From positions 102,016-166,015 of the forward strand of contig NZ_VIGX01000008.1 of the NCBI RefSeq assembly GCF_007858475.1: DNA of 64,000 nucleotides, read 5' to 3'. The notes under the pieces are model-generated. The model had not been told where the DNA came from, did no database searches, and saw only the letters and a list, made by a program, of their open reading frames with translations. Positions 1 to 60,934 of this stretch are shown here, piece by piece. A program made the translations under genes and the position numbers. This DNA is from Tsukamurella conjunctivitidis. GTDB lineage: Bacteria; Actinomycetota; Actinomycetes; Mycobacteriales; Mycobacteriaceae. How positions within the stretch are numbered: position 1 is the stretch's first letter; every line of letters starts with the position of its first letter.

Positions 1-148
1 TCGCCGCGTTCGCGGTCTCGGCCGCATCGGCCTGCGCCGCGGCCAGGCCGGCGAGGAAGCCCGAGAGCCACGCTCGCTGGTCTCCTGTGAAGACGTCGAT
101 GAGGGCGGACGTATCCGCCTCGGGCAGAGCGTAGGTGGGAGTGCTCAT
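1..148 (-). CDS. N-terminal fragment of a putative diflavin (sulfite-reductase-alpha-like) reductase, cut by window edge
   Basis: Only the first 49 residues lie in the window. The ATG overlaps the glutamate synthase stop as ATGA (145-148), so the two are translationally coupled. Residues 24-35 read QRAWLSGFLAGL, which resembles the segment ARAWLEGVLAGV just before the flavodoxin domain of the nitrate reductase fusion at 57011-60934; sulfite reductase flavoproteins have a similar pre-flavodoxin stretch. It does not look like the usual GltD start, which carries a cysteine-rich 4Fe-4S domain. Inference: a flavodoxin/FAD/NADPH reductase that could feed electrons to the upstream glutamate synthase. 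The fragment is short, so the family call is tentative. Confidence 0.5.
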   Translation of the reverse strand, partial: MSTPTYALPEADTSALIDVFTGDQRAWLSGFLAGLAAAQADAAETANAA

Positions 149-3100
149 GCCAGCGTCTCCTTCGCGAACCGCACCAGGTCGGGCATCGCGCCGTCGACCA
201 GCATGGCGTTGACCGTCGCGCCGTCGAGCACCGCGGCGTTGCGGGCCCGGTGGTGCAGGATCCAGCCGTACGTGGCGGGTGCGTCCATGCTCAGCACGTT
301 CCGTTCCTCCAGCGACGTGGTGTAGTCGCCGAGTCGTTTGGTGGCGATCAGCGCCGCGAGTTCGGCGTCGTCGTAGGCCTCGAGCCGACCGCGTAGGTAT
401 TTGGTGAGGCGCTGCCGGACTGCGAAGTCCTCGGTGAGCACCAGGTTCCGGGCGCGCGCCGAGACCCGCGGATCGTCGTGTCCCGTTGCGCCCGAGACGC
501 GCTCGGCGGCGACCTCCTGCGCCAGCGAGAGCACCGTGAACGAGGAGAGCAGGTCGAAGGCGTGCGCCGAGCGGGTGTCGCCGAACCGCGGCGCGGTTCC
601 GCCGCCGACGGGGGCGCCCGCGCGCAGGGAACGTTTGAACGCACGCAGGCGGTCCGCCGCGACCGAACCCGCGAGCTCGTCGAGGAGTTCCTTGCGGCCG
701 TGCGCCGCCCAGATCCGGTCGGCGTCCTGGTAGTGCAACAGCGCGACCGGGGTTCCCACGACGAGGTGTTCGCGGGTCGTCGACCACGCCGCGAGGAGTT
801 CGGCGGCGAGCGGCGATCCGGTCGCCTCGGCGTGCCAGGTCAGCATGGCGTGCGCGGCCGCCTCGTGGAAGCGCGGAGTCTCCGCGCCGACGACCGGGCT
901 CAGGTGCAGCGAGTCGCTCGCGGCCCGCGCGACGGTGCCGGACGGGTCGTACTGGTAGACGAATCCGCCGCTCATGCCGTTGCCCAGGCCCTTGCCGAAT
1001 CCGCCGAGGTTGAGCACCGCGCCGCCGGTCATGTACTCGCAGCAGTATTCGCCGACGCCCTCGACCACAGCGGTCGCGCCCGAGTTCCGGACGGCGAACC
1101 GGTCGCCGGCCTCTCCTTGCACGAAGGTGCGGCCGCCGGTGGCTCCGAACAGTGCGAAGTTGCCGATCAGGACGTTCGCGCCGGGCTCGGCTCCGCCGCC
1201 GCCGGGCGATCGCACCACGATGCGGCCGCCGCACTGGCTCTTCCCGACTCCGTCGTTGGCGGTGCCGGTGTGCTGCAGGTCCATGCCGTCGGTGCAGAAC
1301 ACGCCGAAGGACTGCCCGGCGCTGCCGTGCGTGCGGATGCGGACGGCACCGTCGGCGAGGAAGCGACGTCCGCGCTCGTCGGTGAGCACCGCGGGGTGCC
1401 CCGCCGGGATCGCCTCGCGATCGAACGCGCCCCGCGGGTCGGCGTCCGGGTGGTTGAGCGCGCGTTCCAGGTCGATCGCGAGCTGGCCACCCACCGACTT
1501 GTTCGGGTTCGACAGGGCCACGTCGGAGACGGAGACGGCCTCGGCGTCACCGGAGAACAGCCGCTCCCGGACCTCGGCCAGGAGCCGGTCGTCCACCGCG
1601 TAGTCCTTCTCCAGGTACACCGGTTCGGCGACGGTGCGCGGTGCGGGCGCGTGCAGCATCGCCCGCACGTCCAGATCGCCCACTGCTGCCGGATGTTCCA
1701 GGAGCTGAAGGAGATCGGTGCGGCCGCGGGCCTCGCGGAGCGACCGCAGTCCCAGGCGCGCCAGGATCGCGCGGACGTCGTGCGCCACGTTCAGCAGGTA
1801 CTGCGCCAGCGCGCGCGGGTCACCGTCGAAGGCCTCGGGGTTGGTGGTGAGCCCGGCCGGACACTTGAGGTTGCAGTTCTTGGCCATGACGCACTTGAGC
1901 ATCATCAGGGCGGTGGTACCGAACTCGAACGAGTCGCCGCCGAGGAGCGCCGAGACCACGACGTCACCGCCGGTCTGGTGCGCGCCCGAGCAGCGGAGGG
2001 TCACCTTCTCGCGCAGGCCGTTCGCGACCAGCGCCTGATGCACCTCGGCCACGCCGATCTCCGCGGAACGACCGGCGTACTTGAGGCTGGTGACGGCCGC
2101 CGCACCGGTACCGCCGGTGTTGCCGGCCACGTTGATGACGTCGGCGCCCGCCTTGGCCACACCCACAGCGATGGTCCCGATCCCCTCGGACGACACCAGC
2201 TTCACGATCACCCGCACACGAGCGGCCTTGCAGTCGTGGATGAGCTGCGCCAGATCCTCAATCGAGTAGGTGTCGTGATGCGGTGGGGGAGAGATCAGCT
2301 CGATCCCGGGGGTGCCGCCGCGGGCCGCGGCGATGTCGACGGTGACCTTCGGGCCGGGCAACTGCCCGCCCTCGCCGGGCTTGGCGCCCTGGCCGATCTT
2401 GATCTCCAGCTCCTGCAGCATCGGGTCGGCGAGATACCCCGTCCAGATGCCGAAACGCCCCGACGCGAACTGCTTGATCCGCGATCCGCGGATGGTGCCG
2501 TACCGGGTGCGGTGCTCGCCGCCCTCGCCGCAGTTCGACATGCCGCCCACCATGTTGGTGCCGTGGGCGACGGCCTCGTGCGCTGACGCGACCAGCGCGC
2601 CGTGGCTCATCGCGCCCGATGCCAGCGTTCGGGTGATCTCGTGGGCGGGCTGCACCTCGTCGAGCCCCAACGACGGAGGAGCCGCGCCGAGCAGCGTGAG
2701 GTAGGTGTGAGCGCGCCCCGTCGCCGTGATCTCGGCTTCGGTCGCGGTCGCACGGACCGTGACCTCCTCGGGGAAGGCCGATTCCAGGAACGACGCGAAT
2801 CCCGCGTACGCGGACTCCGCGTCGTTCTCGGGAGTCCCGGTGAGGTGGACGATGAACCGTCCCTCGGCCGGGGTGCTCACCGCCAACCCGCGGGTCGGCA
2901 GGCTCGCGTTGCCGGCCAGGGAGAACCGGGCGAGTTCGCGGTGGAACTCCTGCGCCGTGGTCAGCATGGTCACATCGGCGGGGAGCGCGAGGACGTCGCG
3001 CAGCGCGGACGGCCGGCGCTCCCGCTCGACGAGGGTGGCGGCGAGGAAGTCGCGGTAGCCGTCGGTGATCTCGAACCCGTCGATCTGCCGCGGGAGGAGT

Positions 3101-5670
3101 GCCTTGAAACCGCTGTTGCGGTACGCGGCGTCGTCGAGTCCGAAGGCGTCGTCGAGGCGCGAGAGCGTGAGCAATCGCAGCGACGTGGATCCGATGCCGT
3201 CGGGTCCGGTCAGCGCGAGGGGCTCCTCGGCCATGCGGGTGAATCCGCGGACGGCGTTGATGCCGTAGGAGTGCCCGGCACCGTCCGAGCGTTCCTTGAA
3301 CAGCCCGAGCAGCGGAACCTCGCGCTCCTCCGTGACGGAGACCGCGCGGTCGTGCCAGTCGCTGTTCGCCTGCGCGATGCGCGCGAAGCCGACGCCGCCG
3401 ACCGGCGCGTCCAGGTGCGGGAAGTAGCGTGCCAGGACCGGATCCCGGGTGTCCAGGTAGTTCGGTTCGAAGAACTGCCCGCCGATGTACGACTCGGCGG
3501 TGCACAGTCCCACGCGGCCCATGGTTTTCGCGAGCGACTTCTCCGCCGCCTTGCGGAACCGGTCGAAGGCGTGGTCGGTCTCGGTCAATTCCGTCGCGGG
3601 TGCCGCGGCCGAGGGGAACTTCTCCTCCGCGCGCAGCCGCGCGGAGAGCGAGTACACCGCAGACGCTCCGAACCCCAGCGCCGACGCGATGTGGTGCGAG
3701 GACGGGAGCTGCCCGCTCTCGGCGATGAGGGACAGACGCAGGCGCAGACCGGTCTCCGTCAGGCGGACGTCGGCCGCGGCGAGCGCGAGCAGCAGCGGCA
3801 GCGGCGCCTGCTCGGACGAGACGCCGCGATCGGAGAGCACGGCGATGCCGCCCCCGTCGCGGGCGAAGGTCTCGATCCGGTCGCACAGGTCCTCGATCGC
3901 CGTGAGCACCGCGTCGGCGTTGCCCGCGGCGTCCTCGGGGTCCGGCCGATAGAGCAGGTCGAAGTGCTGCACGGGTGTCAGTCGTTGATCCCGCAGCTTG
4001 ACCATGTCCAGGTGGCCGAGGATCGGCGTTGACACCACGATCTGGGGATCGGCGTGACCGTGCTCCGAGTTGCCAAGAGCGACGCGCATGCTCATCGCAT
4101 CGGCCTCGCGGATGGAGTCCAGGGGCGGGTTGGTCACCTGTGCGAAGCGCTGGGAGAAGTACTTCGCCATGCCGCCCTCGTGGTCCGACAGGGCGTTGAT
4201 CGCGTTGCCGTACCCCATCGCCGAGATCCGCTCCGCGCCGTCGGCGAGCATGGGATCGAGGAGGAAGCGGAAGCTCTCCTGATTGAGGGAGTAGGCCACG
4301 TACCGGCCGTGCAGGGTGAGATCACCCGGGTACCCGAGAGTGTCGGTGTCCCTCTGGATCTCCGGGGCATCGATGTCGGACAGGTCGACCCGTGCGGCGG
4401 CGAGGAGGTCAGTGTAGTCCCGGCGCGCCGCCAGCAGGTCGAGCGCCTCGCGGGTGCGGCGGACGCGGCCGTCGCCGGCGCGATGGTCCACGTAGAGCAT
4501 GCCGCCGGCCTCGATGCGACCGCGGTGGACCACCGACTCCGCGGGGAACGGAACCTGCCCGGCCTCCGACGCGACCACCACGTAGTCCTCGGTCTCGACG
4601 GTGCGCAGCGGACGGAGACCGAGCCGGTCCAGCCGGGCTCCGACCACGTCACCGTCGGAGAAGATGAGGGCGGCGGGGCCGTCGTTCTTCTCCTCGCTCA
4701 GCGAGAAGTACTCGAGCATGTCCCGCACGGGCGCGGGAACCGAGCCGTCGTTCTCCCATGCGGGTGGCATGAGCGAGACGACGGCCTCCACGAGGTCCAG
4801 CCCGTCGTCGAAGACGCGGCTCTGCAGGGACTGGTCGAGTCGGCTCGAGTCCGACTGGCCGGGCGGGCGGACGATCGTGCGCGCTTCGGCCCGCGCGACA
4901 GCGTCGTCGGCGAGGCGGTTCTTCCGGTCGGTGTTGAGCTCGCCGTTGTGGGCCATCAGCCGGAATGGCTGCGCCATCGACGGGTGCGGTTCCGTGTTGG
5001 TGGAGAACCGGGTGTGGAAGTACAGGGTGCAGACGGAGTGCCGGGGGTCGGTCAGGTCGGAGAAGTAGCGGATCACCTCGTCGGCGTTGAGCCTCCCCTT
5101 GAGCGTCTGCGTGCGCGTGCTCACCGAGAGCGGATACAGCCCGTCGAGTTCGGGGGAGCCGTAGGCGATGCTCTCGATCGCCAGGAGGGCCGCATGCGCG
5201 GCGCGATCCGACTCCTCCCGAGAATCGTTCGTGGTGAATACCCACTGCGTGATCGGCAGCTGATAGGGCAGTGCGGCGGCGCGGATCACGGCCGGGTCGA
5301 CGGGGACGTCCCGCTCTGCGATCACCTCGAAGCCGTGCTCCGCCAGTGTCGCGCGCACGACCCCGCGGGCCGATTCGCCCTGATCCGGGTCGGACGGCAG
5401 GAACAGGTTGGCGACGCCGAACCGCCCGCGCTCGAGCTGTCGGCCAGTGATCGCGCTGAAGAACTCCACGGACAGGTCCACATTGATCCCGGCCCCGTCG
5501 CCGACGCCCTCGGCGGACATGCCGCCGCGGTGGGGGATCGCGCACAGCGCGTGCTCGCCGAAAGCGATCACGTCGTGGTGCTGCGAGCCGTCCTTGCGCG
5601 TGATGAAGCCGACGCCGCAGGCGCTCGACTCCCGGGTGGGGTCGTACAGACCGGTTCGTGGTTCGTTCAA
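145..5670 (-). CDS. gltB: Long-form glutamate synthase, large (GltB-type) subunit
   Basis: Converts 2-oxoglutarate and glutamine to two glutamates in the cytoplasm. The start is a TTG; Cys18 in ACGVGF is the Ntn glutaminase nucleophile exposed after processing. Order: glutaminase about 18-430, central domain to about 890, an extra segment about 893-1000, FMN/substrate barrel about 1010-1330, GXGXG beta-helix about 1380-1610, then a helical extension to 1841. Typical GltB has about 1500 residues and lacks both extras. The 3Fe-4S cysteines are C1260, C1266 and C1270, spaced x5/x3 instead of the usual x5/x4. It is coupled by ATGA overlap to a diflavin-reductase-like gene instead of gltD. An iron box lies 38 bases upstream. 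The family is certain; the electron donor is inferred. Confidence 0.93.
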   Translation of the reverse strand: MNEPRTGLYDPTRESSACGVGFITRKDGSQHHDVIAFGEHALCAIPHRGGMSAEGVGDGAGINVDLSVEFFSAITGRQLERGRFGVANLFLPSDPDQGESARGVVRATLAEHGFEVIAERDVPVDPAVIRAAALPYQLPITQWVFTTNDSREESDRAAHAALLAIESIAYGSPELDGLYPLSVSTRTQTLKGRLNADEVIRYFSDLTDPRHSVCTLYFHTRFSTNTEPHPSMAQPFRLMAHNGELNTDRKNRLADDAVARAEARTIVRPPGQSDSSRLDQSLQSRVFDDGLDLVEAVVSLMPPAWENDGSVPAPVRDMLEYFSLSEEKNDGPAALIFSDGDVVGARLDRLGLRPLRTVETEDYVVVASEAGQVPFPAESVVHRGRIEAGGMLYVDHRAGDGRVRRTREALDLLAARRDYTDLLAAARVDLSDIDAPEIQRDTDTLGYPGDLTLHGRYVAYSLNQESFRFLLDPMLADGAERISAMGYGNAINALSDHEGGMAKYFSQRFAQVTNPPLDSIREADAMSMRVALGNSEHGHADPQIVVSTPILGHLDMVKLRDQRLTPVQHFDLLYRPDPEDAAGNADAVLTAIEDLCDRIETFARDGGGIAVLSDRGVSSEQAPLPLLLALAAADVRLTETGLRLRLSLIAESGQLPSSHHIASALGFGASAVYSLSARLRAEEKFPSAAAPATELTETDHAFDRFRKAAEKSLAKTMGRVGLCTAESYIGGQFFEPNYLDTRDPVLARYFPHLDAPVGGVGFARIAQANSDWHDRAVSVTEEREVPLLGLFKERSDGAGHSYGINAVRGFTRMAEEPLALTGPDGIGSTSLRLLTLSRLDDAFGLDDAAYRNSGFKALLPRQIDGFEITDGYRDFLAATLVERERRPSALRDVLALPADVTMLTTAQEFHRELARFSLAGNASLPTRGLAVSTPAEGRFIVHLTGTPENDAESAYAGFASFLESAFPEEVTVRATATEAEITATGRAHTYLTLLGAAPPSLGLDEVQPAHEITRTLASGAMSHGALVASAHEAVAHGTNMVGGMSNCGEGGEHRTRYGTIRGSRIKQFASGRFGIWTGYLADPMLQELEIKIGQGAKPGEGGQLPGPKVTVDIAAARGGTPGIELISPPPHHDTYSIEDLAQLIHDCKAARVRVIVKLVSSEGIGTIAVGVAKAGADVINVAGNTGGTGAAAVTSLKYAGRSAEIGVAEVHQALVANGLREKVTLRCSGAHQTGGDVVVSALLGGDSFEFGTTALMMLKCVMAKNCNLKCPAGLTTNPEAFDGDPRALAQYLLNVAHDVRAILARLGLRSLREARGRTDLLQLLEHPAAVGDLDVRAMLHAPAPRTVAEPVYLEKDYAVDDRLLAEVRERLFSGDAEAVSVSDVALSNPNKSVGGQLAIDLERALNHPDADPRGAFDREAIPAGHPAVLTDERGRRFLADGAVRIRTHGSAGQSFGVFCTDGMDLQHTGTANDGVGKSQCGGRIVVRSPGGGGAEPGANVLIGNFALFGATGGRTFVQGEAGDRFAVRNSGATAVVEGVGEYCCEYMTGGAVLNLGGFGKGLGNGMSGGFVYQYDPSGTVARAASDSLHLSPVVGAETPRFHEAAAHAMLTWHAEATGSPLAAELLAAWSTTREHLVVGTPVALLHYQDADRIWAAHGRKELLDELAGSVAADRLRAFKRSLRAGAPVGGGTAPRFGDTRSAHAFDLLSSFTVLSLAQEVAAERVSGATGHDDPRVSARARNLVLTEDFAVRQRLTKYLRGRLEAYDDAELAALIATKRLGDYTTSLEERNVLSMDAPATYGWILHHRARNAAVLDGATVNAMLVDGAMPDLVRFAKETLA

Positions 5671-5707: not shown

Positions 5708-5726
5708 AATGGTAAGGCTAACCTTA
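5708..5726. promoter_or_regulatory. Candidate IdeR/DtxR iron box upstream of gltB
   Basis: The 19-mer here matches the known actinobacterial iron box TTAGGTTAGGCTAACCTAA at 14 of 19 positions, including the core GGCTAACCT. It lies 38 bases before the gltB start and 86 bases before the divergent membrane protein gene. Its position near the gltB transcription start would suit iron-dependent repression of gltB. Family knowledge: IdeR binds this box when loaded with Fe2+. Confidence 0.68.
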
Positions 5727-11352: not shown

Positions 11353-11371
11353 TTAGGTTAGCCTCGCCAAT
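11353..11371. promoter_or_regulatory. Candidate IdeR/DtxR iron box upstream of doxX
   Basis: The left half TTAGGTTAG matches the iron-box consensus perfectly; the full 19-mer scores 14 of 19. It ends 22 bases before the doxX ATG, a position suited to repression by iron-loaded IdeR. Confidence 0.62.
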
Positions 11372-11393: not shown

Positions 11394-11852
11394 ATGAACC
11401 GCTGGGCCCCGTACTACCTGTCCGCACTCCGGATCGTGACGGGCGTGCTCTTCGCGCTCCACGGCGCCGCCACCTTCTGGGGCTTCCTCGACGGCCGACG
11501 GTCGAGCCCGGACGTCTTCGCGTGGCCCAGTTGGTGGGGCGCCGCGATCCAGCTCGTCGGCGGCCTGCTCATCGCCGTCGGTGCGCTCACCCGTCCCGCC
11601 GCGATCATCGCCTCGGGCTCCATGGCGTACGCGTACTTCGCGTTCCACGCCGGCGACGGGCTGTCTCCGCTCGCGAACGACGGTGAGCTGTCGGTCCTGT
11701 ACTGCTGGGTGCTGCTGCTGTTCGCCTTCACCGGCGCCGGACCGATCAGCGTCGACGCCGTGATCGGCCGTCTCCGGGACGGCGATCAGGCTGAGGCGAA
11801 GGCTCCATCGGACCGCGCCGACGAGAAGGATGCGGCAGAGTCTGCGGTATGA
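11394..11852 (+). CDS. DoxX family membrane protein
   Basis: A 152-residue integral membrane protein with four hydrophobic segments (about 6-28, 45-65, 70-88, 100-120) and DoxX-type features: ALRIVTGVLFALHGAATFWG and WGAAIQLVGGLLIAVGALTRPAA. Mycobacterial DoxX has been linked to a membrane redox complex with superoxide dismutase and a thiosulfate sulfurtransferase; whether that holds here is unknown. I start it at the ATG at 11394, preceded by GAAGGTGG, because the frame upstream is non-protein-like and holds an iron box. The stop overlaps the next gene as ATGA. The tail is charged and cytoplasmic. Confidence 0.85.
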   Translation: MNRWAPYYLSALRIVTGVLFALHGAATFWGFLDGRRSSPDVFAWPSWWGAAIQLVGGLLIAVGALTRPAAIIASGSMAYAYFAFHAGDGLSPLANDGELSVLYCWVLLLFAFTGAGPISVDAVIGRLRDGDQAEAKAPSDRADEKDAAESAV

Positions 11853-55341: not shown

Positions 55342-57024
55342 TCAGGCGAGCCGTTCGACGAGGTCGCCCGGGCGTGCGAGCGGGGGTACGAGCGCCACCG
55401 CGCGGCGGCCCACGGCGTCCCGCAGGTGGGGCGTCGCAACGGTCGCGGGGAGGAGCCACCGTCCGGCGCCGTCGGGTTCGACCGGGAGCATGCGCCAGCG
55501 GTCGTCGGGGTTGCCGTCGGCGAGGAGGAGCAGGTCGACGGTCCGCGGGCCCTCCCTCAGCAGCGCCGCGCACAGAGGGCGGGCGAGGAGTGCGGCGCCC
55601 AGCATCGCCGCCATCGGGTTTCCGCCCAGGCCCACCACGATCGGGCCGTCCGGCACCGTCGCCACGAGGAGCGAGCCACCGGGGCGGACGTCGACGCCGT
55701 CGACGAGCTGCGTCGCCCCGGCCTCGGCGAGCGCGTCTCGCAGACGGTCCGCGGCACCGCGGCCGGTCGCGCCGATGATCACCACGACGTCGGCGCCGTC
55801 CGGGAGGAGCGCAGCACCGAACGAGGCGGGCGCGTCGCGCAGGTGCGGCCCCCGCCGCACGTCCGCGCCAGCCGTCTCGAAGGTCGTGGCGACGGGTCCC
55901 CACGCGGTCTCGGGCAGGCCGGTGCGGCCGGCGGCCCCGACCTCGTCGCCGGAGGTGTGCAGCCGGATCCGGACCGGACCGCGGGAGGGGAGGAAGGACA
56001 CTCCGGCGGCCGTCGCGAGTGAGACGGTGGCCGGGTCGATCGCGGTGCCGGCGGGTGCGAGCGTCGTGCCCGCCTGCCACGCCGAGCCGATGCGCCGGAC
56101 ATCGTCGCGAGCGGGATCCGCGCACCCGAGCAGCGCGCCGTCGCGCACGATCTCCTCGTCGCGGACCACGCGATCGGCGCCCATGGGGAGGCGGGCGCCG
56201 GTGGCGATCCGCACCGCGGTCCCGGTGCCGAGCGGCAGCGGGTCGTGGCCCGCGACCGCCGCGCCTTCGACGGGCCGCCACGGCGGCGGGCCCGCGACCG
56301 CCCAGCCGTCCATCGCGGACTGGTCGAACGGCGGAAAGGGAGCCGCCGCGACGAGCGGATCCGCGAGGACCGCCCCGGGCACCAGCGGTCCGGGAGATGC
56401 AGGCAGTGCGGGGAGCGTCGTGCGCAGGAGCCGGCGCACGGCGAGCGGGGACGCGAGGGCGCGGGCCAGGTCCTCGGGCGTGTCCACATCGGCGAGCGGT
56501 TGCCGCAGCCGGGGCGCGTCCGGCGGGACGATCGCTCGGACCGGTACGCCGGACGGCTCGTCGATGCCCACCAGTGCCGCGCGCAGGGCGTCCGCCTCCC
56601 ATACGGCGAGCAGGTATTGCGGTCTGCCGTGCACGTCCTCGGCGATCGCCACGGCGGCGCCGGTCGCGGCACGCAGGGCGGCCAGCCCGGCCAGGGTCGA
56701 CGGCTCCACCTCGGGAACGTCGGCGGCCACGACCGCGATCGTCCGCGCATCCGCGGGCACGGCGGCGAGGCCCGCGGCGATCGCGGCGAGGGGACCACCG
56801 CCCGGCGGGTCCTCGCGGACCACGGTGACGTGATCCGGTACCGCGCGCGGCGGGCCCACGACGACGGTGCGCGCGCCGCGGGCAGCGGCGATCGCCGCGT
56901 CGAGCAGACGTCGCCCGCCCACTACGATCTCGGGTTTGTCGCGCCCCAGACGGCGTGCCCCGCCACCTGCCACGACCACGGCCGCGTCGCAGGACGCGGC
57001 CGGGTCGCGGTCAGTAGACGTCAC
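55342..57024 (-). CDS. MobA-MoeA fusion for molybdenum cofactor completion
   Basis: 560 residues from the GTG at 57024, which overlaps the nitrate reductase stop by 14 bases. The N-terminal MobA-type guanylyl/nucleotidyl transferase about 1-190 has VVVAGGGARRLGRDKPE. The C-terminal MoeA-type molybdenum insertase about 200-560 has FDQSAMDGWAVA, TGARLPMGAD, TSGDEVG and GLGGNPMAAM. Together they insert molybdenum and form the dinucleotide cofactor needed by the upstream nitrate reductase. The reaction order in the fusion is assumed from the single-domain families. Confidence 0.88.
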   Translation of the reverse strand: MTSTDRDPAASCDAAVVVAGGGARRLGRDKPEIVVGGRRLLDAAIAAARGARTVVVGPPRAVPDHVTVVREDPPGGGPLAAIAAGLAAVPADARTIAVVAADVPEVEPSTLAGLAALRAATGAAVAIAEDVHGRPQYLLAVWEADALRAALVGIDEPSGVPVRAIVPPDAPRLRQPLADVDTPEDLARALASPLAVRRLLRTTLPALPASPGPLVPGAVLADPLVAAAPFPPFDQSAMDGWAVAGPPPWRPVEGAAVAGHDPLPLGTGTAVRIATGARLPMGADRVVRDEEIVRDGALLGCADPARDDVRRIGSAWQAGTTLAPAGTAIDPATVSLATAAGVSFLPSRGPVRIRLHTSGDEVGAAGRTGLPETAWGPVATTFETAGADVRRGPHLRDAPASFGAALLPDGADVVVIIGATGRGAADRLRDALAEAGATQLVDGVDVRPGGSLLVATVPDGPIVVGLGGNPMAAMLGAALLARPLCAALLREGPRTVDLLLLADGNPDDRWRMLPVEPDGAGRWLLPATVATPHLRDAVGRRAVALVPPLARPGDLVERLA

Positions 57025-60000
57025 GCACGTATCTCCGTTCGGCGGACAGCGCCGCGAGGTAGGCATCGGCGCTGCGGGGGGCCATGTGGCCGTGTTCGGC
57101 GACGATACCGCGCAGGGCCTCGTCCACGTCGCGGGCCATGCGGGCCGCGTCGCCGCACACGTACACGTGTGCGCCGCGCCGGATCCACTCCCACAGCTCG
57201 GCGGCGTGCTCACGCATCCGGTCCTGCACGTACACCTTTCGGGCGCTGTCGCGGGAGAAGGCGGTGTCCACGCGGGTGAGCACGCCCTCGGCGGCGAGGA
57301 CGTCGAGCTCCGTGCGGTAGTAGAAGTCGCTGGCCTCGTGCTGCTCGCCGAAGAACAACCAGTTCGGTCCCGTCGCTCCGGCGCGTGCCCGGTCGTGCAG
57401 GAAGCCGCGGAAGGGGGCGATGCCCGTGCCCGGGCCGATCATGATCGCGGGGGCGTCGGGGTCCTCCGGCGGCAGGAAAGCGCGGGTGGGCTGTACGAAG
57501 ACGTCCACCTCGCCGCCCGCGTCGAGCCCGGCGAGGTGCGTCGAGCAGGCGCCGCCGCGGCGGCGTCCGGCGTGCTCGAAGGCCACGACGGAGACGGTGA
57601 TCGACACCCGGTCGGGGTCCTCGCGAGGACTGGACGAGATCGAGTACAACCGGGGCGTGAGCGGCCGCAACAGGGCCTCCCACTCCGCGGGATCGGCCTG
57701 CACCGGGTGCGCGGCGAGAAGGTCGAGCAGCTGACGGCCCCACGTCCACGAGGCGAACTTCGTGGGGTCGTCGAGCACACCGCGCAGCTCGTCGTTCACC
57801 TCGCAGCGGTCGGCGACGAAGCGCAGCAGCTCGGGGGTGATCCGGGTGAGGTCCTTGCGGTCGAGATCCGCCACGTCGCGCCGCACACCGGTGCGCGCGC
57901 AGAACTCCTCGATCACGGCCCCCGAGTTCACCGGGAGGATCCCGAGGGCGTCGCCTGCGCGATAACTCAGCTCCGCCGCCGGGAGCTCGAAGGTGAAGCG
58001 GCGCACGTCCTTCGCCGAACCCTCCCCGGACAGTCGCTCGGATTCCACCAGGCGGGTCCGCAGCGGGTTGGTCCGGGAGCGGCCCGACCGCTCCGCCGTC
58101 CGTTGCGGCGGCGCGGCCTCGGGGTCCAGCGCGGTCACCACCGTGCCGAGCCACGCGGCGGCGGTCTCGGCGTAGTCGGGCTCGCACGAGGAACGCGGCG
58201 CGAGCCGGGCCGCGCCGAGGTGCTCGAGACGCGCGTCCAGCTTGCGGGCGAAGCCGCAGAAGTCGGCGTACGACGGGTCGCCGAAGCCGAGGACGGAGAA
58301 CCGCAGGCCGCCCAGGTCGCCGGGCTCCGCCGAGGCGAGCGCGTCCCAGAGCGCGACGCCGTTGTCGGGCGCTTCGCCGTCGCCGGTCGTGGCGACCAGG
58401 AACAGCACGGTGCCCGTCAACTGCGCGGGCGAGACCTGTTCGGCGCCGAGGATCGTCGTCGTCATGCCGGCGCCGCTCAGTGCCTCGGCGCAATCGGCGG
58501 CGTACGCCTCGGCCGTGCCCGTCTGCGACGCCCATACGATGCTGACTGTCGCGCCCGGGGGCTGCGTCTCGGCCGGGGACGCGCCGTACACGCCCGCAAG
58601 GACGCCCTCGAGCCAGGCGCGCGCGATCGGGGCGAGGGGCGCGTCGCCGGGCACCGTCGGCACACCCGACGGGGGCGCGACGCTCAGGCCCGTCAACAGC
58701 CCGCCGAGGAATCCCGAGGCCTCCGCGGTCAACTCGCCCGGGCCCGAGGCGAACGGCGCGAGCGCCGTCGCGAGCGGCGAAGCATGGGCCGCGGCGGGAG
58801 CCGGGGCCGGGGCCGGCGGGTCGGCCGGAAGCGGGGTGAGCGCGACCGCACTCACCTTGAACTCGGGCTGCAGTGATTCGGGATCGACGGCGTCGTTGGT
58901 CACCGCGTTCACGGCCACATCCTCTCCGAAGGAGTCGGCGAAGTGCATGGGGGCGAAACAGACCCCGGGCCGGACGGCGTCGTCGACGGCGACGGGCAGG
59001 GTCGCGCCGCCGCGGCGGCTGGAGACCCGCACCCGCGCCCCCGGGGTGAGGCCGAGCCGGTCGGCGTCCTCGGGATTGACCTGGAGGAAGGGCGCGGGGT
59101 TGAGACGGTTCAGTTTGGCGACCCGCCCGGTCTTGGTCATGGTGTGCCACTGGTGCGCGAGCCGACCGGTGGTGAGGATCAGCGGGTACTCGTCGTCGGG
59201 CAGTTCCGCGGGCGGGAGGTAGGGCCGCGGGAGGAATCGTGCCCGTCCGGACGGGGTGGCGAAGACGGGGCCGCGCGCGGTGTCCTCGGGGTCGAGGTAA
59301 CGCACCGGATTCCGGTCGGGGCCGCCCGGTGCGGCGGGCCACTGCACGGGTCCGCGCGCCAGGCGCGCGTGGTCCACGCCGCGCACGTCCCAGCCGGTTC
59401 GGGGGTTGTGGAAGGCGCTGAGCTCGTCGAAGACCGCCGCGGCGTCGGGGTAGTCGAAGTCCGCACCGTGGCCCAGCTCGGCGGCGATGAGGCAGATCAA
59501 CTTCCAATCGGGGAGCGCGTCACCGGGCGGGGGCGTCGCGGCGGCGGTCCGGGTGAGGGAGCGTTCCGAGTTGACCATCACGCCGTCGGTCTCGGCCCAC
59601 AGCGCGGCGGGTAGCACGACATCGGCGTACTCCGAGGTCTCGGTGCCCGTGTACGCATCCTGCACCACCACCAGCTCGGCCGACCGCAAGGCGTCGATCA
59701 CGGTGGAACGGTTCGCCATCGACGCCACGGGGTTGCTGCAGATGATCCAGGCGGCCTTGATCGAGCCCGCGGCGAGATCGCGGTACATCTGGACGGTGCC
59801 CTGGCCGGCCTCCGCGCGGATCGTGCCCTCGGGCAGGCCCCAGAGGTCCTCGGTGCGGGCGCGGTCGCCCTCGTCGAGGACGGACCGCTGTCCGGGCAGG
59901 CCCGGTCCCATGTACCCCATCTCGCGGCCACCCATCGCGTTCGGCTGGCCGGTGAGGCTGAAGGGGCCCGAGCCGGTACGGCAGATCGCGCCGGTGGCGA

Positions 60001-60934
60001 GGTGCAGGTTGCAGAGCGCGATCGTGTTCCACGTGCCATGGGTGGACTGGTTCAGGCCCATGGTCCACAGGCTGGTCCAGTTCGCGGCGCCGCCGATGAG
60101 CTCGGCCGCGCGCTCGATGTCGGCGGCGGCGAGGCCCGTGATCTCGGCGACGCGGTCCGTCGGGTAGTCCTCGAGGAAGGCGGGCATGGCGTCCCAGCCC
60201 TCGGTGTGGTGCGCGATGAAATCGAGGTCGAGCGCGTTCTTCTCGGCCAGCAGCCGGAGGATCCCGTTGAGCAGCGCGAGGTCGGTGCCCGGGCGGACGG
60301 CGAGGTGGAGATCGGCCTTCGCGGCCGTGGCGGTGCGGCGCGGATCGACCACGATGAGGCGCGCGCCCGCCTTGACCCGGTCCATCATCCGTAGGAACAG
60401 GATGGGGTGGCAATCGGCCATGTTGGCGCCCATGACGAGGAAGACGTCGGCGTGGTCGAGGTCGTCGTAGCTGCCGGGCGGCCCGTCGGCGCCGAGGGAC
60501 TGCTTGTAACCGGTACCGGCGCTCGCCATGCACAGTCGCGAGTTGGACTCGATCCATTTCGTCCGGAGGTAGCCCTTCGCCAGCTTGGTGGCGAGGTACT
60601 GCGCCTCCAGCGTCATCTGTCCGCTCACGTACAGGGCGATCGCGTCGGGACCGTGTTCGTCGCGGATGGCGCGCAGGCGCTCGCCGGTCGCCGTGATGGC
60701 CTCCGCGAGGCCGACGGGGCCCCGGGGCGCGTCGCGGTCCTGGCGCAGCTCGGCGCGGGTCTGGCGGCCGCCCGCGGCGAGCAGGTCGACGGTGGTCGTC
60801 CCCTTCGTACACAGCCGGCCCCGGTTCGCCGGGTGGTTCTTCGTGCCGACGGAGCCCGTGACGGCACCGTCGCGCACCTGCAGCGTGAGGCCGCAGCCCA
60901 CCCCGCAGTACCCGCACACCGTCTCCACATCCAT
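57011..60934 (-). CDS. Assimilatory nitrate reductase fused to diflavin (sulfite-reductase-alpha-like) reductase
   Basis: A 1307-residue single-chain NADPH:nitrate reductase. The 4Fe-4S ligands are C7, C10, C14 and C42 (x2/x3/x27). The molybdopterin domains extend to about 740 (NasA/NarB type, RLAHQWHTMTKTGR near the C-terminal Mo domain). A Pro/Ala linker leads to ARAWLEGVLAG, then flavodoxin about 820-960 (WASQTGTAEAYAADCAEAL), the FAD domain (LYSISSSP) and NADPH domain to the end (GPGTGIAPFRGF, HVYVCGDAARMARDV). It needs no separate electron-transfer partner. It is the first gene of the minus-strand nitrate operon, with GlnR-like half-sites upstream. Confidence 0.93.
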   Translation of the reverse strand: MDVETVCGYCGVGCGLTLQVRDGAVTGSVGTKNHPANRGRLCTKGTTTVDLLAAGGRQTRAELRQDRDAPRGPVGLAEAITATGERLRAIRDEHGPDAIALYVSGQMTLEAQYLATKLAKGYLRTKWIESNSRLCMASAGTGYKQSLGADGPPGSYDDLDHADVFLVMGANMADCHPILFLRMMDRVKAGARLIVVDPRRTATAAKADLHLAVRPGTDLALLNGILRLLAEKNALDLDFIAHHTEGWDAMPAFLEDYPTDRVAEITGLAAADIERAAELIGGAANWTSLWTMGLNQSTHGTWNTIALCNLHLATGAICRTGSGPFSLTGQPNAMGGREMGYMGPGLPGQRSVLDEGDRARTEDLWGLPEGTIRAEAGQGTVQMYRDLAAGSIKAAWIICSNPVASMANRSTVIDALRSAELVVVQDAYTGTETSEYADVVLPAALWAETDGVMVNSERSLTRTAAATPPPGDALPDWKLICLIAAELGHGADFDYPDAAAVFDELSAFHNPRTGWDVRGVDHARLARGPVQWPAAPGGPDRNPVRYLDPEDTARGPVFATPSGRARFLPRPYLPPAELPDDEYPLILTTGRLAHQWHTMTKTGRVAKLNRLNPAPFLQVNPEDADRLGLTPGARVRVSSRRGGATLPVAVDDAVRPGVCFAPMHFADSFGEDVAVNAVTNDAVDPESLQPEFKVSAVALTPLPADPPAPAPAPAAAHASPLATALAPFASGPGELTAEASGFLGGLLTGLSVAPPSGVPTVPGDAPLAPIARAWLEGVLAGVYGASPAETQPPGATVSIVWASQTGTAEAYAADCAEALSGAGMTTTILGAEQVSPAQLTGTVLFLVATTGDGEAPDNGVALWDALASAEPGDLGGLRFSVLGFGDPSYADFCGFARKLDARLEHLGAARLAPRSSCEPDYAETAAAWLGTVVTALDPEAAPPQRTAERSGRSRTNPLRTRLVESERLSGEGSAKDVRRFTFELPAAELSYRAGDALGILPVNSGAVIEEFCARTGVRRDVADLDRKDLTRITPELLRFVADRCEVNDELRGVLDDPTKFASWTWGRQLLDLLAAHPVQADPAEWEALLRPLTPRLYSISSSPREDPDRVSITVSVVAFEHAGRRRGGACSTHLAGLDAGGEVDVFVQPTRAFLPPEDPDAPAIMIGPGTGIAPFRGFLHDRARAGATGPNWLFFGEQHEASDFYYRTELDVLAAEGVLTRVDTAFSRDSARKVYVQDRMREHAAELWEWIRRGAHVYVCGDAARMARDVDEALRGIVAEHGHMAPRSADAYLAALSAERRYVRDVY

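Follow-up and report, generated by a model that had tools for sequence, protein, structure and literature searches.

In the window analysed here, a stretch of 64,000 nucleotides from a 5.07-Mb Tsukamurella genome (contig C332:102016-166015), a long gene of the GltB type is followed by a gene for a CysJ-like diflavin reductase. On the evidence of their sequences, the two genes very probably encode a real diflavin-driven glutamate synthase, dependent on reduced nicotinamide adenine dinucleotide phosphate (NADPH), in which a CysJ-type reductase takes the place of GltD. Electrons would pass from NADPH to flavin adenine dinucleotide (FAD), flavin mononucleotide (FMN), the 3Fe-4S cluster and FMN, in that order. 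With somewhat less confidence, we consider the pair to be a fourth class of glutamate synthase that has moved between phyla by transfer, its own reductase with it, has taken over the gltBD interval on at least two occasions in Gammaproteobacteria and provides Actinobacteria with an iron-regulated isozyme of low iron content. The iron-sparing part of this proposal is the less sure one and is made for Actinobacteria only. The two genes are as follows.

145 to 5670, minus strand: long GltB-type gene (protein P0002), TTG start, 1841 residues, four GltB Pfam domains
1 to 148, minus strand: first 49 codons of a gene for a CysJ-like diflavin reductase (protein P0001), continued left of the window (whole gene L005:16383-18164, minus strand, G000:C332)

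P0002 exceeds the Pfam gathering scores for all four of GATase_2, Glu_syn_central, Glu_synthase and GXGXG. An earlier reading of the window from its letters alone (the sequence-only reading) had described an ATGA overlap between the two genes, and the coordinates (145-148) agree: the gltB stop codon TGA occupies 145-147 and the ATG of the next gene 146-148. The same reading took the downstream gene to be diflavin-reductase-like and its first 49 residues to be free of GltD features, which the whole gene bears out, as its 593-residue product carries the Pfam domains Flavodoxin_1, FAD_binding_1 and NAD_binding_1. These domains, with no Fer4_20/Pyr_redox architecture among them, rule out GltD as the neighbour of this gltB. 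A second, normal gltBD pair is present in the genome on contig C21; its GltB (P0005) has 1563 residues, and its GltD has Pyr_redox_2 and Fer4_20 domains and matches TIGR01317 at 747.7 bits.

The pairing of the two genes was followed in relatives retrieved with an alignment of five long GltBs as the query. The relatives used are the best 80 of at least 553 confirmed (at least 596 matched stretches) and, by their record titles, comprise 54 loci from Actinomycetota, 20 from Alphaproteobacteria and six from Gammaproteobacteria. The neighbour survey of long GltB homologues that the sequence-only reading had proposed gave a uniform result: in all 80 loci the next gene downstream, on the same strand, is a CysJ homologue (49-95% identity), three of these genes being cut by a contig end, and GltD was found in the flanks covered of none of the 80. 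A CysJ neighbour in every relative indicates that the pairing is not due to chance. Among 61 genomes (that of the window and 60 relatives), nine have a long GltB and CysJ adjoins it in all nine, while GltD adjoins GltB in the 18 canonical loci L016-L033; three others, L034-L036, end inside gltB and are uninformative. It follows from these adjacency counts and the patchy occurrence that the pair, though scattered in distribution, travels as a single unit. The distances between GltBs and between CysJs are correlated (r = 0.89 for 35 pairs; the largest value in 2000 permutations was 0.235), and shared species history would likewise produce a correlation. In a quick CysJ tree the GltB partners fall into a single clade, which is weak because there are only two outside rows, both long-branched. 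The domains and the invariant pairing thus support the proposal of a glutamate synthase fed by a flavodoxin-FAD reductase instead of GltD, and from them we infer the electron transfer itself.

Transfer of electrons from the reductase to GltB becomes more credible in the light of genomes in which the pair appears to have replaced gltBD. For 40 of the 80 loci the genome was searched for GltD, which was clear (E of 1.4e-90 or better) in 14 of 14 Actinobacteria and in 18 of 20 Alphaproteobacteria. The six gammaproteobacterial genomes, namely three Pantoea, one labelled Enterobacter ludwigii and two SAR92 metagenome-assembled genomes (MAGs), gave no clear GltD, only short weak pieces (best E from 3e-4 to 6e-10). 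Two alphaproteobacterial MAGs (Tepidamorphaceae and Marinibacterium) also gave no clear GltD, and the TIGR01318 cut-off was passed in none of these eight genomes, the best match being 254 bits in the Marinibacterium MAG. A search with NF008730 found no full-length GltB other than the long type in any of the six Gammaproteobacteria or in the Tepidamorphaceae MAG. In the Marinibacterium MAG there is also a canonical GltB, truncated where its contig ends; the lack of GltD there may therefore be an assembly effect. Canonical GltD is kept in all 16 tested actinobacterial genomes that carry the pair.

The position of the pair in Gammaproteobacteria is in line with these searches. Three of the four Pantoea/Enterobacter loci have it flanked by arcB on one side and sspB-sspA-rpsI on the other, the fourth showing arcB only, and in E. 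coli K-12 this same interval holds gltBD, along with yhcC and other genes. The neighbours of the SAR92 loci resemble, by eye, aroK-aroB and hemE, which we take to be the usual surroundings of gltBD in Pseudomonas. Taken together, this suggests a natural replacement of gltBD by the pair in Gammaproteobacteria, and in some members of this class the pair would now be the sole glutamate synthase. In a quick tree that includes four of the six Gammaproteobacteria, two gammaproteobacterial groups stand apart among the Alphaproteobacteria, an arrangement that needs two origins; two separate replacements of gltBD are therefore likely.

The long GltB retains the residues expected of a glutamate synthase and differs from canonical GltB in three places.

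5617 to 5619, minus strand: codon of the catalytic Cys18, Cys in 84 of 84 rows
1861 to 1893, minus strand: 3Fe-4S cluster motif C-x5-C-x3-C (residues 1260-1270), the same in 83 of 83 relatives
2671 to 2988, minus strand: insert of about 100 residues between the central and FMN domains (residues 895-1000)
148 to 918, minus strand: C-terminal region past residue 1585, of which the last 175 or so residues are exclusive to the long type

The catalytic Cys, the oxyanion Asn-Gly, the three cluster Cys residues and 15 other checked positions are invariant in all 84 rows (the window and 83 relatives); the roles given to these residues are those we assume from GltB in general, Cys18 presumably becoming the nucleophile once a 17-residue leader is removed. 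P0002 would on these grounds be catalytically active. Canonical GltB has the cluster spacing C-x5-C-x4-C in 18 of 18 canonical loci, and the long type, one residue shorter, lacks it; the canonical pattern as written additionally required Pro after the last Cys, and E. coli GltB was unmatched by it. The insert measures 94-145 residues across the 83 relatives against seven in the canonical P0005, and one further relative (L015, genome G023) has a long GltB without the first insert. Past residue 1585 the relatives have 253-277 residues and P0005 has 83. The C-terminal region has a strong near-full-length match in ten of 397 genomes of the order; 31 other matching genomes of the order gave only pieces of 20-30 bits, mostly in frames of canonical length. 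The insert and the C-terminal extension may be docking parts for the reductase.

The promoter of the pair offers a possible reason for keeping it beside gltBD in Actinobacteria, and a third gene of the operon bears on how this promoter is to be read.

5708 to 5726, minus strand: iron box of DtxR/IdeR type, TAAGGTTAGCCTTACCATT, 37 bp upstream of the start codon of gltB
L005:15448-16383, minus strand, to the left of the window: third gene of the operon, HemS/ChuX-like, sharing one base with the end of cysJ

All 80 loci were scored for the box (score out of 19), the promoter tile being the 300 bp before gltB. The DtxR-box score of the gltB promoter is above that of every other tile in 43 of the 54 actinobacterial loci, and 30 of these 54 promoters score 13 or more, compared with six of 2158 other tiles; the Fur consensus is best at the promoter in just six of the 54. 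In the genome of the window, sites with at most two mismatches to the box pattern occur in five places only: at the gltB promoter, beside three Peripla_BP_2 genes and beside one DUF2470 gene. Peripla_BP_2 proteins presumably include siderophore-binding proteins, and we take the DUF2470 protein to be haem-related. The canonical gltBD promoter on C21 has no box site within three mismatches.

Under DtxR/IdeR control, expression of the pair would be expected when iron is scarce, and in Actinobacteria it would then act as a second isozyme alongside gltBD. Section 6.1 of a review gives the cofactors of GltBD as FAD, FMN, one 3Fe-4S cluster and two 4Fe-4S clusters (PMC8097209). These clusters amount to 11 Fe, and with a flavin-only CysJ-type reductase 3 Fe are left, so the response to low iron would be to swap an 11-Fe enzyme for a 3-Fe enzyme. 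Canonical gltBD is reported to drop under iron limitation in Caulobacter (PMC3751524) and, as cited in PMC9938188, to be likewise lower in Bacillus.

Several points tell against the iron-sparing proposal. The consensus scored is the general DtxR/IdeR one, and the box was first spotted by eye in this same window. The promoter is not the best tile in 11 of the 54 actinobacterial loci, and 24 of the 54 score under 13, among them all 14 Curtobacterium sites (11-12). At three mismatches the genome-wide search gave 23 sites against 18 in the reversed control, near background, and the control covers three mismatches but not two; a stricter pattern built around TAAGGTTAGCCTTACCATT had no other match in the genome. 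Finally, the alphaproteobacterial and gammaproteobacterial promoters of the pair show no enrichment of the DtxR or Fur consensus.

This last result also suits the alternative that the pair is a genuine CysJ-coupled glutamate synthase that does not spare iron, the box serving the HemS-like gene or the pair having some other advantage, for example oxygen tolerance. The apparent housekeeping role of the enzyme in Gammaproteobacteria fits it as well. Against it, the box stands directly before gltB rather than before the third gene, and high-scoring sites occur where the HemS-like gene was not found, such as the two Corynebacterium loci L049 and L050, with scores of 13 and 14 and no such gene in the flank covered. 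We regard this alternative as unlikely, though worth keeping in view; its probability overlaps with that of the preferred explanation because the enzyme itself is common to both.

The HemS-like gene is itself weakly conserved and was found by BLAST in 33 of the 80 loci. The protein encoded next to the window matches PF05171 at 21.4 bits, under the cut-off of 24; a copy in Azorhizobium reaches 91.8 bits, and one in Shimia has no Pfam match. A regulator and siderophore-uptake genes come after the operon in Ketogulonicigenium; genes of this kind were not seen beside it in the plasmid loci of Shinella and Neorhizobium.

Two further motifs were noticed. A second iron-box-like site, TTAGGTTAGCCTCGCCAAT, lies at 11353-11371 of the window (plus strand), about 22 bp before the likely start of a DoxX-like gene (approximately 11394-11852) whose identity is taken from the gene order in the record of a relative. 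In Rhizobiaceae, the promoters of the pair (L079, L086, L089, L092, L116, L118 and L119) have in common an inverted repeat that approximates GTCAG-N5-CTGAC and adjoins a likely -10 region. The repeat is possibly iron-related; its consensus was derived from the same Rhizobiaceae sequences and we draw no inference from it. It is unlike the RirA box, given as TGA-N9-TCA in PMC8822346. A scan of ten loci for known RNA families returned only the small RNA ArcZ, in three of the ten.

With the enzyme part common to both explanations above, the question becomes whether the long GltB makes glutamate at all. It might instead be an amidotransferase, genuinely reduced by CysJ, whose substrate for amination is some other 2-oxo acid or acceptor. 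The two large extra regions and the altered cluster motif would sit easily with such a role, as would the retention of canonical GltD in the actinobacterial genomes tested and the public records, three of the four opened naming the protein only 'glutamate synthase-related protein' and one 'gltB'. Set against this, the motifs QGAKPGEGGQLP, RGxTPG and SPPPHHD, which are presumably on the substrate side, are common to P0002 and the canonical GltB of the same genome. Moreover, the pair has the gltBD interval to itself in Pantoea/Enterobacter, with no other full-length GltB or clear GltD found in those genomes. We therefore hold the amidotransferase explanation to be improbable and return to a CysJ-coupled glutamate synthase.

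The reductase itself has cysJ (TIGR01931) as its best NCBIfam model, and over its length P0001 shares 41% identity with E. coli CysJ, both proteins ending in RDVY. Its first 49 residues hold DQRAWLSGFLAGL, which the sequence-only reading had likened to the stretch preceding the flavodoxin domain of a nitrate reductase fusion in the same window. The likeness is real, but it is a general CysJ trait: the equivalent position in E. coli CysJ reads QLAWVSGYFWGVL, and a loose pattern for the stretch matched 80 of 80 neighbouring CysJ frames examined, three frames cut by contig ends being excluded. The fusion, NasA-CysJ (57011-60934, minus strand, 1307 residues), is another nitrogen-assimilation enzyme with a CysJ module. 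In L013 (genome G007, of the same genus), the long gltB is immediately preceded by a second CysJ-like stretch (39-1232) with 58% identity to P0001.

P0001 is judged unlikely to be the electron-supplying part of a sulfite reductase. The best TIGR02041 match for CysI in the genome of the window is 109.8 bits against a cut-off of 756.55, and CysI over the cut-off was not found in any of 11 actinobacterial genomes tested (that of the window and ten others), which leaves this CysJ with no apparent sulfite reductase haemoprotein in those Actinobacteria. It is very improbable that the reductase works for another acceptor, be it sulfite reductase or, for haem degradation, the HemS-like protein, and has only the operon in common with GltB: its resemblance to CysJ, the HemS/ChuX-like gene that comes next in 33 loci and the iron box of the operon speak for such a role, and are outweighed by CysJ being present in all 80 loci, by the missing CysI and by the genomes without GltD, where GltB would be left with no known reductase.

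For the enzyme as proposed, a CysJ-coupled glutamate synthase, some results remain as counterweights. P0002 falls under the curated cut-off of NF008730 (995.3 bits against 1047), and P0001 is likewise under that of its canonical family (603.9 bits against 668.15). Among the gammaproteobacterial relatives, five narrowly pass NF008730 with pieces summed (1053.9-1063.2) and one does not. The CysJ-type reductase could have further partners, for example the HemS-like protein, and the CysI search covered actinobacterial genomes only. Two of the six gammaproteobacterial genomes are MAGs, whose incompleteness weakens the SAR92 cases, though not the Pantoea isolates.

Compared with known systems, the pair has most in common with GltBD: a four-domain alpha subunit, the catalytic Cys, the FMN-domain and 3Fe-4S cysteines, a two-gene operon, NADPH as presumed donor and, in Pantoea, the interval of E. 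coli gltBD. It differs in having a diflavin reductase as partner, the C-x5-C-x3-C motif, the insert and the C-terminal extension, and it is without the two 4Fe-4S clusters because there is no GltD. Like the ferredoxin-dependent glutamate synthase, it has no GltD, and a one-electron carrier would deliver electrons straight to the 3Fe-4S cluster; unlike that enzyme, it would rely on a dedicated reductase encoded with it rather than on ferredoxin. The loop of the Synechocystis ferredoxin enzyme (1llw), which we take to be the loop that defines that family, is absent from P0002, the alignment being split at 914/930. CysJI has the same reductase type, with an N-terminal W-x-x-G segment and C-terminal RDVY, and differs in its acceptor, CysI in place of GltB. 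The NasA-CysJ fusion, too, supplies a nitrogen-assimilation enzyme through a CysJ module, whereas the pair is unfused and the CysJ parts are only 45% identical.

The review cited above lists NADPH-dependent (GltBD), ferredoxin-dependent and NADH-dependent glutamate synthases (PMC8097209), and a review of diflavin reductases names partners that do not include glutamate synthase, the word glutamate occurring nowhere in its text (PMC3509625). In the open-licence full-text literature, no description of the pair was found among the matches listed, and one may exist elsewhere. The pair looks like an unrecognised form of glutamate synthase. It would, if so, be a new class of a central enzyme of nitrogen metabolism, and the two low-potential 4Fe-4S clusters of GltD would seem dispensable. 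Iron sparing would acquire a concrete mechanism in which an iron-rich enzyme is replaced rather than just repressed, and ammonia assimilation would be kept going under iron shortage by an isozyme swap. Genes named 'sulfite reductase subunit alpha' beside a 'glutamate synthase-related protein' would be misnamed, and genomes scored as lacking GltBD may yet have a complete glutamate synthase.

Two observations concern the wider surroundings of the pair. Locus L117 (NZ_LR134452.1) is a 386-kb record labelled as plasmid 10 of Tsukamurella tyrosinosolvens, in which the pair stands beside orn and other chromosomal-looking genes; it is possibly a piece of chromosome mislabelled as a plasmid. Downstream of the operon next to the window (L005:9175-15379), two SSF-type sodium symporters, a PucR/CdaR-like regulator and an amidohydrolase were recognized by eye.

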